A DNA stretch of 29,576 nt, from IMG/VR virus record IMGVR_UViG_3300025617_000079, positions 1 to 29,576 of that record; one strand, 5' to 3'. Origin of the DNA: a virus. The position numbers and the translations under genes were made by a program. Of this stretch, positions 3,199-26,021 are shown piece by piece (position 1 is the first letter of the stretch; the number at the start of each line of letters is the position of its first letter). The notes below the pieces were generated by a model. It saw only the letters and a program-made list of their open reading frames with translations, was not told the origin of the DNA and made no database searches.

Positions 3199-3271
3199 TG
3201 GCCTATAGCTCAATTGGCAGAGCAGAGAGCTGTTAACTCTAAGGTTCCTGGTTCGAGTCCAGGTAGGCCAG
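3199..3271 (+). tRNA. tRNA-Asn (GTT)
   Basis: Cloverleaf with acceptor TGGCCTA/TAGGCCA, D-arm GCTC/GAGC, anticodon loop CTGTTAA and T-loop TTCGAGT. Discriminator G fits Asn. No encoded CCA. The outer anticodon-stem pair looks mismatched (G-A). First of five tandem tRNAs. Confidence 0.95.
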
Positions 3272-3288
3272 CTGATAATTTAATATTT

Positions 3289-3359
3289 GCGAATATAGTT
3301 TAATGGTAAAACTTAACCTTGCCAAGGTTATGACGCGGGTTCGATTCCCGCTATTCGCT
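3289..3359 (+). tRNA. tRNA-Gly (GCC)
   Basis: Acceptor GCGAATA/TATTCGC, anticodon loop TTGCCAA on a TAACC/GGTTA stem, T-loop TTCGATT, discriminator T. No encoded CCA. Confidence 0.95.
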
Positions 3360-3360
3360 C

Positions 3361-3434
3361 GGCCCTATAGCTCAGTTGGTTAGAGTGCCGCCCTGTCACG
3401 GCGGAGGTCGCCAGTTCAAGTCTGGTTAGGGTCG
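3361..3434 (+). tRNA. tRNA-Asp (GTC)
   Basis: Acceptor GGCCCTA/TAGGGTC, anticodon loop CTGTCAC on a CCGCC/GGCGG stem, T-loop TTCAAGT, discriminator G. It lies 1 nt after tRNA-Gly and 1 nt before tRNA-Thr, which implies one processed precursor. Confidence 0.95.
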
Positions 3435-3435
3435 C

Positions 3436-3509
3436 GCCTCCTTAGCTCAGTTGGCCAGAGCACCGCTCTTGTAAAGCGGGGGTCGTCAGTTCGAATCTGA
3501 CAGGAGGCC
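3436..3509 (+). tRNA. tRNA-Thr (TGT)
   Basis: Acceptor GCCTCCT/AGGAGGC, anticodon loop CTTGTAA on a CCGCT/AGCGG stem, T-loop TTCGAAT. The TGT anticodon reads ACA, a codon common in these AT-rich genes. No encoded CCA. Confidence 0.95.
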
Positions 3510-3512
3510 CGA

Positions 3513-3585
3513 GCCTCTGTAGCTCAGGGGACAGAGCATCGGACTTCTAATCCGTGTGTCGTAGGTTCGAATCCTACCAGGGGTA
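3513..3585 (+). tRNA. tRNA-Arg (TCT)
   Basis: Acceptor GCCTCTG/CAGGGGT (two G-U pairs), anticodon loop CTTCTAA giving TCT, T-stem GTAGG/CCTAC, discriminator A. It reads AGA, which is frequent in the phage genes here and usually rare in actinobacteria. Confidence 0.93.
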
Positions 3586-3603
3586 CAAATGAAAAGGAAA
3601 AAT

Positions 3604-11576: not shown

Positions 11577-11861
11577 ATGAATAAGCATGAATGGAAAGAC
11601 GAAGCAGATTGTAAGGGCTACGACACTAACCTATTCTTTGACAAATATGAGGACGATCTTTCTCTAAGAAAAGCTGTAGATAGTGTGTGTGCTGGATGCC
11701 CAGTTGCTAAGCAGTGCTTTGCTGTCGGAGTATCCCAAAAAGAATGGGGTGTCTGGGGCGGTATCTATCTAGAAAATGGCAAGATATCTAGAGAGTTTAA
11801 CAGACACAGAAGTAAGCCAGACTGGGCAGAGACTTGGCAATACTTAACGATGGATAAGTGA
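11577..11861 (+). CDS. whiB: WhiB-family iron-sulfur transcription factor
   Basis: A 94-aa member of the actinobacteria-specific WhiB family, which carries a [4Fe-4S] cluster and acts with the host sigma factor. The four ligands are C12, C38, C41 and C47 (C-X25-C-X2-C-X5-C), followed by the GVWGG turn (EWGVWGGIYLENG) and a basic tail (REFNRHRSKPDW). Phage WhiB proteins (for example TM4 WhiBTM4) can interfere with host WhiB regulators; that role is plausible here but not shown. Its presence is the best evidence for an actinobacterial host. Confidence 0.93.
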   Translation: MNKHEWKDEADCKGYDTNLFFDKYEDDLSLRKAVDSVCAGCPVAKQCFAVGVSQKEWGVWGGIYLENGKISREFNRHRSKPDWAETWQYLTMDK

Positions 11862-11865
11862 TAAT

Positions 11866-13398
11866 ATGAATAGTAATAAGTTTGTAATTGTAGGGGGAGG
11901 CACCGCTGGGTGGCTGACTGCACTTATTTTAAGAAAATCGTTCCCACTGGCCTCTATTGATCTAGTAGAAAGCTCTCAGATTGGAATCTTGGGAGCGGGA
12001 GAGGGCTCAACCCCACATTTCTTACAGGCTTTAGAGTATGCTGATATTAACTTAAAAGATCTAATCACTAACACTTCTTGTACCATCAAAAATGGTATTC
12101 TGTTTGATAATTGGAGCAAGAACAAAGAGCCATACATCCATGGCTTTGGGGTCAACGACGCTAGGTTTGGACAAGATGCTTTTAACAGCAAGTTTTCAGA
12201 GTTTGAGTTTACCCCTGCTCCGATCTTAGAATACTTGGCTGAGCGGAACGAGCTTTCTGAAAAAGATATTGGTTTTCTAACTAACCTTAGTTTAAAAAAT
12301 AAAACATTGTTTAGAAAAGAAAATGATCAGTACCATCAAAAAGGAATCTATGCCGTACACTTTGACGCTAGATCTTTGGCAGAGTACATGGCTAAGGTTG
12401 CCCGTGAGCGTGACGTTAAACGAATTGAGGGCAAGGTCCAAGACATTCATCGTAATGAAAGTGGTAACATTACCCATCTTGTTTTAGATAATGGCAGAGA
12501 GGTTCGCGGACAGTTCTTCTTTGACTGCACTGGATTTGCCAGACTTATTATTGGCAAACTCTTTGAGTCGGAGTGGGTAAGCTTTAAGGATAGCCTTCCA
12601 GCTAAAAGAGCTATGCCATTCTTCTTAGACCCAGACGAACACAGCGTTCAGCCATATACACATGCCAAAGCAATGGACCGTGGGTGGATCTGGAAAATTC
12701 CTCTGCAGCACAGATACGGATGCGGTTATGTATATGACCCAGATCAAATTTCTGACGATGAGGTAAAGCAAGAGATTGATGAGTTTGCTGGCAAAGGGGT
12801 TGAGATCCCAACCATGTTTAACTTTGACCCTGGTTACTACAAGAAGGTATGGATTAAAAACTGTCTAGCTCTTGGTCTGTCCAATGGCTTTGTGGAGCCA
12901 TTAGAAGCAACATCTCTGATGCAATTAATCTTTGCATTACAAACATTCTTATCTCAAAGGCACAAAGTCTTTAGCGATGATGATGTGTTTAAGGATAACT
13001 ACAACAGACAGATTGAAGAAGACCACAGAGACATTGAGGCCTTCATCTATCTTCACTACATGACTGATAAAGACAACAACGATTTCTGGTCTAACTTTAC
13101 CAGCAACTACAAAATGCCAGACAGGCTAGTATCAACTGTAGAAAGACTAAGGTATGGAATCCTAAACATGAGGGACAATACTGGAATTTTTGATATCAAT
13201 AGCCATCTTGTTGTTGGCAGGGGAAACGGACTCCTTCTTAAAGATAATGTAGAAGAAATCTATCAGGCCTCTATTAAAGATATGGGCATAGAGCCTTTTA
13301 TTCCAGAAATTATTAGAGATATAGACCATCAAACTGGCACCATGACGGATCATAAGCAGTTCTTAACTGACTTGGGAGGCACTGTTGGCAAAAGATAA
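11866..13398 (+). CDS. Flavin-dependent halogenase, tryptophan-halogenase family
   Basis: A 510-aa FAD enzyme. Motifs in order: dinucleotide-binding GGGTAGW (residues 10-16), AGEGSTPHF (44-52), the predicted catalytic lysine K75 in TIKNGILFDNW, substrate-side W274-I-W-K-I-P279 (the WxWxIP halogenase signature that blocks monooxygenase activity), and NGFVEPLEATSL (340-351) with the conserved glutamate. Reduced FAD, oxygen and halide would give a hypohalite held by K75. Relatives occur in marine cyanophages, including VirX1, reported to iodinate many substrates. No flavin reductase is seen in the window. Substrate unknown. The next gene overlaps its end. Confidence 0.92.
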   Translation: MNSNKFVIVGGGTAGWLTALILRKSFPLASIDLVESSQIGILGAGEGSTPHFLQALEYADINLKDLITNTSCTIKNGILFDNWSKNKEPYIHGFGVNDARFGQDAFNSKFSEFEFTPAPILEYLAERNELSEKDIGFLTNLSLKNKTLFRKENDQYHQKGIYAVHFDARSLAEYMAKVARERDVKRIEGKVQDIHRNESGNITHLVLDNGREVRGQFFFDCTGFARLIIGKLFESEWVSFKDSLPAKRAMPFFLDPDEHSVQPYTHAKAMDRGWIWKIPLQHRYGCGYVYDPDQISDDEVKQEIDEFAGKGVEIPTMFNFDPGYYKKVWIKNCLALGLSNGFVEPLEATSLMQLIFALQTFLSQRHKVFSDDDVFKDNYNRQIEEDHRDIEAFIYLHYMTDKDNNDFWSNFTSNYKMPDRLVSTVERLRYGILNMRDNTGIFDINSHLVVGRGNGLLLKDNVEEIYQASIKDMGIEPFIPEIIRDIDHQTGTMTDHKQFLTDLGGTVGKR

Positions 13399-17923: not shown

Positions 17924-17934
17924 GAATTGCATTT

Positions 17935-18181
17935 AGTGGACGTGGCGGGAATCGAACCCGCGTCCAGACCTTTCTCCGATGAGCTTCTACATGTTTAGAT
18001 CAAAGATCGGGTATTGCGATACTGCTATATAGTTACGATATTGCTATTTTGTTATAAATTAAGCCGCTAGGGCAAATTGATTCTTGTTTGCATTTATTAG
18101 TTTGCCACCGATTAAGGCACGGTAGCCCTACCACATGCTTCCTCATCATTGATGCGACCTGTCGAAACCGATCACGCCCAC
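17935..18181 (-). ncRNA. ssrA: tmRNA (ssrA), compact phage form
   Basis: Reverse-strand RNA that rescues stalled ribosomes. The 5' part GTGGGCGTGATCGGTTTCGACAGG and the 3' part with T-arm GCGGGTTCGATTCCCGC and CGTCCAC form the tRNA-like domain (7-bp acceptor with one G-U). Helix P2 can pair GATGAG...GCATGT with ACATGT...CTCATC. The tag frame reads ANKNQFALAA then TAA, ending in the ALAA degron recognised by ClpXP. At about 247 nt it is much shorter than the usual 350-400 nt, with the pseudoknot region after the tag reduced to an AT-rich repeat-like stretch. No CCA is encoded. Upstream TGG-TATAAT gives a promoter. Confidence 0.92.
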
Positions 18182-25863: not shown

Positions 25864-25894
25864 GACCTATCAAGGAGAACTAATACCCCCAAAG

Positions 25895-25980
25895 TTATCC
25901 ACAGACTTATACACAATTGTGGATAAACATCTTACTGATATATACACTTGATGTGGAGAGAAGTGGAGTAAAGTGGATAA
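25895..25980. other. Putative replication origin: DnaA-box cluster and phased GTGGA repeats
   Basis: Two forward DnaA boxes, TTATCCACA (25895-25903) and TTATACACA (25907-25915), and one inverted, TGTGGATAA (25918-25926), all matching the TTATNCACA consensus within 32 bp. Then three 10-bp blocks each carrying GTGGA (25951-25960, 25961-25970, 25971-25980), the last ending as a near DnaA box (AGTGGATAA). AT-rich DNA lies between and after them. The site is at the meeting point of forward and reverse gene blocks. Confidence 0.65.
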
Positions 25981-26021
25981 TGGGTATTGGAACACCCTTT
26001 AATAACTATCTTAATAAACAT

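Follow-up and report, generated by a model that had tools for sequence, protein, structure and literature searches.

An MraZ-operator-like array beside oriC-like DnaA boxes: a candidate replication origin in environmental actinophages

Where the gene blocks of this viral DNA converge, DnaA boxes stand next to three phased GTGGA repeats, which raises the question of which host proteins would read the two halves of the site and whether the whole could serve the virus as a start point for replication. The window, that is, the entire stretch analysed, is a 29.6-kb fragment (29,576 bp). An earlier note on the same sequence had proposed a phage origin that uses, or titrates, host DnaA. It had described the GTGGA repeats correctly as present and phased but gave them no explanation, and their likeness to an MraZ operator was missed.

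The element and its distribution among viruses

Three exact TTATNCACA boxes, two direct and one inverted, occupy 32 bp at 25895-25926 as had been reported, and a count over all 29,576 bp returned no further exact match. Three matches anywhere in the window are unremarkable (1.3 expected); their confinement to 32 bp was not reproduced in any of 400 first-order Markov simulations, which bears out the earlier view that the cluster is improbable by chance. The GTGGA cores start at 25953, 25963 and 25973, in exact 10-bp steps (blocks spanning 25953-25977), and three GTGGA at this spacing were likewise obtained in 0/400 first-order Markov simulations. The AT-rich DNA that had been claimed is present between the boxes and the array (Table 1), with a peak of up to 85% AT at 26000-26019. 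Since forward open reading frames stop by 25711 and reverse ones lie past 26431, the intergenic gap is convergent, in keeping with the placement of the site at a junction of forward and reverse gene blocks. Box 3 occupies a place that spans only 5 nt in the common form of the element.

Table 1. Features of the site, in coordinates of the window
Feature	Position	Strand	Basis or remark
DnaA box 1, TTATCCACA	25895-25903	+	exact match; tandem boxes kept in relatives
DnaA box 2, TTATACACA	25907-25915	+	exact match
DnaA box 3, inverted TTATCCACA	25918-25926	-	exact match; 20-bp palindrome with box 2
DnaA-trio-like block, ATC TTA CTG ATA	25929-25940	+	four NTN, i.e., 3'-NAN-5' trios; 13 nt past box 2; BUS rule (PMC8287927)
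Candidate unwinding stretch, boxes to operator	25929-25952		AT content (65-75% AT)
MraZ-operator-like array, three GTGG boxes at 10-bp period (ATGTGGAGAGAAGTGGAGTAAAGTGGA)	25951-25977	+	host-operator matrix and reciprocal test
Whole element	25882-25988		edges AATACCC (25882-25888) and GGGTATT (25982-25988)

The edges of the element form a flanking inverted repeat, which is similar in the related locus L006 and weaker in L004 and L005. A separate motif, ATTACGAAGG(N8-10)AAAATCGT, is present in three copies on the reverse strand (26048-26024, 26368-26344 and 26657-26633), upstream of or inside the reverse gene block, and may form a hairpin with a loop resembling a ribosome-binding site.

A search with a neighbouring protein led to three relatives in which a recognisable element has the same position and the same flanking gene blocks. 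A gapped pattern permitting any spacing from 25 to 55 bp had matches in more than 119 viral contigs; the spacings peaked sharply at 48-51 bp, and true elements amounted to about 98 viral loci with 82 distinct sequences (compared as 110-mers). Neighbouring gene families are common to most of these loci, which therefore belong to a single broad lineage of phages, with flanks that vary greatly. Against a sequence model built from 32 elements, leaving out the window and L004-L006, the window scored 47 bits (E 5e-14). Of 20 whole records, 19 gave a single near-full-length copy with this model, and the L004 record gave only a partial one. Further DnaA-box pairs do exist elsewhere in the relatives, but the full element is single per record. 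Three narrower searches gave no match, namely an exact 32-bp motif scan of viral contigs, a BLAST search of the region against cultured phages and a BLAST search of the array alone against phages, the last with a filter that may mask simple repeats. A perfect copy of the phage element was also seen in a contig filed under a Chitinophagaceae metagenome-assembled genome (CANGYR010000020.1, L128), probably misbinned phage DNA.

By portal protein, the closest cultured relatives are Streptomyces phages. The window encodes a WhiB-like regulator at 11577-11858 (PF02467, E 1e-13); whiB serves as an actinophage marker (PMC6802176, PMC10914622), and from WhiB the host is presumed to be an actinobacterium. 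Host assignment from the tmRNA matched only the conserved 3' end and was uninformative. The tmRNA gene itself lies at 17934-18179 on the reverse strand of the window (tag ANKNQFALAA), five tRNAs are found at 3199-3586 and a tryptophan-halogenase-like gene at 11866-13395.

Resemblance to host DnaA and MraZ sites

In the bacterial origin-unwinding system (BUS), a DnaA box is followed by a short spacer and then by at least three trinucleotides with a central A on the 3'-5' strand (PMC8287927). The phage site has tandem boxes, conserved in related phages, then a spacer within about 16 bp (13 nt in the window and 5 nt in almost every relative) and a sufficient run of trios, four of them in the window. 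In 93 of 97 elements, 5 nt separate the proximal box from the block ATSTTACTGAT that follows it. At this fixed 5-nt offset at least three trios occur in 95% of 77 distinct elements, which are not independent tests because the sequences are related; the mean run is 5.65, compared with 2.24 in shuffles, and other registers seldom satisfy the rule.

Bacterial oriC BUS cores (PMC6669920, PMC8287927) share with the phage site the tandem TTATCCACA, the short spacer, the central-A trios (three or more) and the AT-rich DNA next to them. The phage site differs in being viral, in lying away from dnaA-dnaN, the context of a chromosomal oriC, and in having an MraZ operator at its far end, and the window has an additional inverted box. 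In a 2.6-Mb Yaniella genome, the model has its top match in the dnaA-dnaN region, where it aligns over its full length, and several two-box matches from other actinobacteria also fall in that region; among 20 further actinobacterial oriC regions, no clear resemblance to the whole element was detected besides Yaniella. DnaA (domain IV) was found in none of 20 phage records, and a long relative (G009) carries genes for a DnaB-like helicase, a DnaG-like primase, a Pol III alpha subunit and RecA. Boxes, trio-like block and phage replisome genes in records with no DnaA match fit an origin opened by host DnaA. The conserved boxes, the fixed spacing of the trio-like block, the DnaA-free phage records, the phage-encoded helicase, primase and polymerase of the long relative, and the full-length model alignment to one actinobacterial dnaA-dnaN region together make DnaA a well supported likely ligand, and to this extent the earlier proposal stood; its further step to a phage origin is one that we infer, with skew unsupportive and the boxes lost in some relatives.

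GC skew, which the earlier note had suggested as a check, gave the origin no support. The cumulative skew has a local maximum at the site, opposite in sign to a leading-strand origin, and it tracks gene direction; in long relatives it follows the coding strand too, without singling out the element. A skew minimum would be general support for an origin, outside the BUS sequence definition. Skew was dropped as evidence on origins because it is confounded by gene direction.

The second half of the element resembles a different kind of host site. MraZ represses the division cluster (PMC8475190), and its published site in Mollicutes is (AAAGTGKN3)3 (PMC5282649). The phage array conforms to this consensus in having three direct GTGG-type repeats at a 10-bp period. 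In host genomes, those matches of the element model that cover only the array lie just upstream of mraZ. An exact pattern from the array matched six of 138 whole genomes, and in four of the six the match precedes mraZ by 33-80 bp on the same strand; in two of these cases the distance presupposes the usual domain order, only one MraZ domain being listed there. When a matrix derived from the phages was run over 40 actinobacterial mraZ loci, taking the single best match per 3.1 kb on both strands, that match preceded mraZ by 58-143 bp on the sense strand in 40/40 (about 4 expected). The reciprocal matrix, from 40 host mraZ operators picked by GTGG phasing alone, gave the phage element as its best site in the window (33.1 bits, with 14.8 for the next site outside it) and in three long relatives, one of which (G007) has another site scoring nearly as high. 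The phased GTGGA blocks thus match, by sequence, the operator of host MraZ, the regulator of the division and cell-wall (dcw) cluster, with an identity to actinobacterial mraZ operators beyond chance.

Compared with the MraZ operator of the dcw cluster, known from the E. coli and Mollicutes literature (PMC8475190, PMC5282649) and from actinobacterial promoters, the phage array shares three direct repeats, the 10-bp period and the (A)AGTGG core, and it is near-identical to some actinobacterial operators. It differs in having no mraZ gene and no conserved -35, and in lying in a convergent gap beside DnaA boxes, away from any mraZ or dcw promoter. No match to MraZ was found in the phage records; because of this and of the convergent gap, the array is labelled an MraZ-operator-like site and not a dcw promoter. 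Beside the 40 host mraZ operators there were no DnaA boxes except one loose match 333 bp upstream. MraZ-like arrays in 20 actinobacterial oriC regions were mostly non-significant, and the idea of such an array as a general oriC feature of actinobacteria was rejected on that account.

Plasmid and phage origins such as P1 oriR have DnaA boxes beside initiator iterons. The phage element is alike in placing its boxes next to phased direct repeats, but here the repeats match the operator of a host transcription regulator and not iterons of a phage initiator, and no initiator gene was recognised. Faust-group Streptomyces phages (Stanwilliamsviridae) and T5-like Salmonella phages have near-identical CTGTGGATAAACCTGTGGATAACT in gene-free DNA. 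In Faust the tandem boxes are kept in a gene-free gap, but the MraZ array was not detected; many Streptomyces-sized genomes have no mraZ, which is suggestive only as regards this absence in the Faust group. An ATTACGA-like motif adjoins the DnaA boxes of Streptomyces phage Faust, and ATTACGA is about 3.6-fold enriched in the related phage loci (820, with 228 expected). In the T5-like Salmonella phages, for example Stitch and Sw2, near-identical tandem DnaA boxes lie inside annotated terminal repeats.

How far the two halves belong together was judged from searches with each alone. The DnaA core by itself recovered 106 distinct cores, with three upstream period-10 CCAC in 74 and two in 13, a share biased upward because some loci came from an earlier pattern that required the array; in the remainder the array is degenerate or lost, or the core arose by chance. 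The array by itself recovered 58 arrays of the first family, 50 of them with DnaA boxes. Eight have no nearby boxes and retain AGTAAGAT, which makes it less certain that this block is a run of trios. These are L285, L287, L289, L326, L291, L304, L290 and L318, and in several an ORF starts soon after. In a second layout the same gap holds both parts, with the tandem boxes about 365-405 bp away from the array (L312, L308, L301, L298, L288 and others), and in a third a row of boxes is directly beside the array on its other side (L293, L306). Tandem boxes were present within 700 bp of 11 of the 19 scanned arrays of this type. The two parts therefore tend to remain associated even where their arrangement has changed.

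Readings of the combined site

We incline, with confidence barely better than even, to a BUS-type, oriC-like phage origin dependent on host DnaA, in which the MraZ operator would modulate initiation or titrate MraZ. Host DnaA would first assemble at the tandem boxes, then spread onto the adjacent trio-like block and open the AT-rich stretch, where the DnaB-like helicase of the phage would be loaded. From the order of the parts (boxes, trios, AT-rich stretch, operator), MraZ would be positioned at the distal end of the stretch that opens. Once bound, it may gate or assist opening, and phage initiation would then be tied to the division state of the host, while rising phage copies could titrate MraZ off the dcw promoter. 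Gating of helicase loading in cis and titration in trans would not be mutually exclusive. A more specific version, in which MraZ occupancy beside the DnaA core switches the origin and copy number strips MraZ from the dcw promoter, both via one 100-bp site, is put forward tentatively and is rather doubtful. That the two proteins bind, that the origin fires and that MraZ has a part in it are all points that we infer. Against an origin stand the skew, which shows no proper switch, the relatives that have no boxes or a degenerate or missing array, and the other box pairs in relatives.

Part of this evidence would also suit a decoy, that is, a sponge and not an origin, titrating DnaA so that host initiation is blocked and MraZ so that the dcw genes are derepressed. 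Both halves match sites of host regulators, neither cognate protein was found in the phages, titration would tolerate the differing spacing of the two box/array layouts, and the convergent gap contains no promoter target in the window. A sponge, however, needs neither the fixed 5-nt trio spacing nor a strict order of parts, and many arrays would titrate better than the single operator present per genome; this explanation is unlikely, though it carries appreciable weight. Control of a phage promoter by MraZ and DnaA, in the manner of MraZ at mraZ, is improbable. Many host mraZ promoters do have the array between a TTGAC -35 and a TANNNT -10, and the window retains TTGATG adjoining the array, but the -35 is unconserved in the common form and a scan yields only a 9/12 site at 25954, no better than background. 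Because genes converge on the site, both in the window and in the second family, the transcript of such a promoter would be antisense.

It is also conceivable that the GTGGA blocks belong to one extended DnaA array as low-affinity boxes, their likeness to MraZ sites being incidental, given that TCCAC is common to both motifs and that the Yaniella oriC shows TCCAC at period 10. Base preference points the other way, as the unit is CTCCACTT, with C before and T after TCCAC at 88-98%, whereas the DnaA box is ATCCACA; the matrix, moreover, finds mraZ operators in 40/40 loci and is non-significant in most oriC regions. On these two grounds this reading was rejected, and we give it very little credence. 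A packaging or attachment site is the least probable of all. Tandem boxes do occur in gene-free DNA of cultured relatives and of T5-like phages, in some of the latter within annotated terminal repeats, but the element is internal in three long records in which end repeats were not found, and an unsystematic look through the ORFs of the window noticed no integrase.

Significance for MraZ and for phage replication

MraZ heads the division and cell-wall cluster in many bacteria, and why cells need it is poorly understood. In the open-access papers searched, no report was found of an MraZ operator in a virus or of a link between MraZ, phage and DnaA. The joining of a viral operator to a DnaA core in about 100 environmental actinophages offers an external view of MraZ, and with it a connection, open to testing, between phage replication and the control of host division. 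For these viruses, whose replication has gone unstudied, the element also provides a compact candidate origin. It suggests that the viruses engage two central regulators of the host together, either to start replication or to titrate both.
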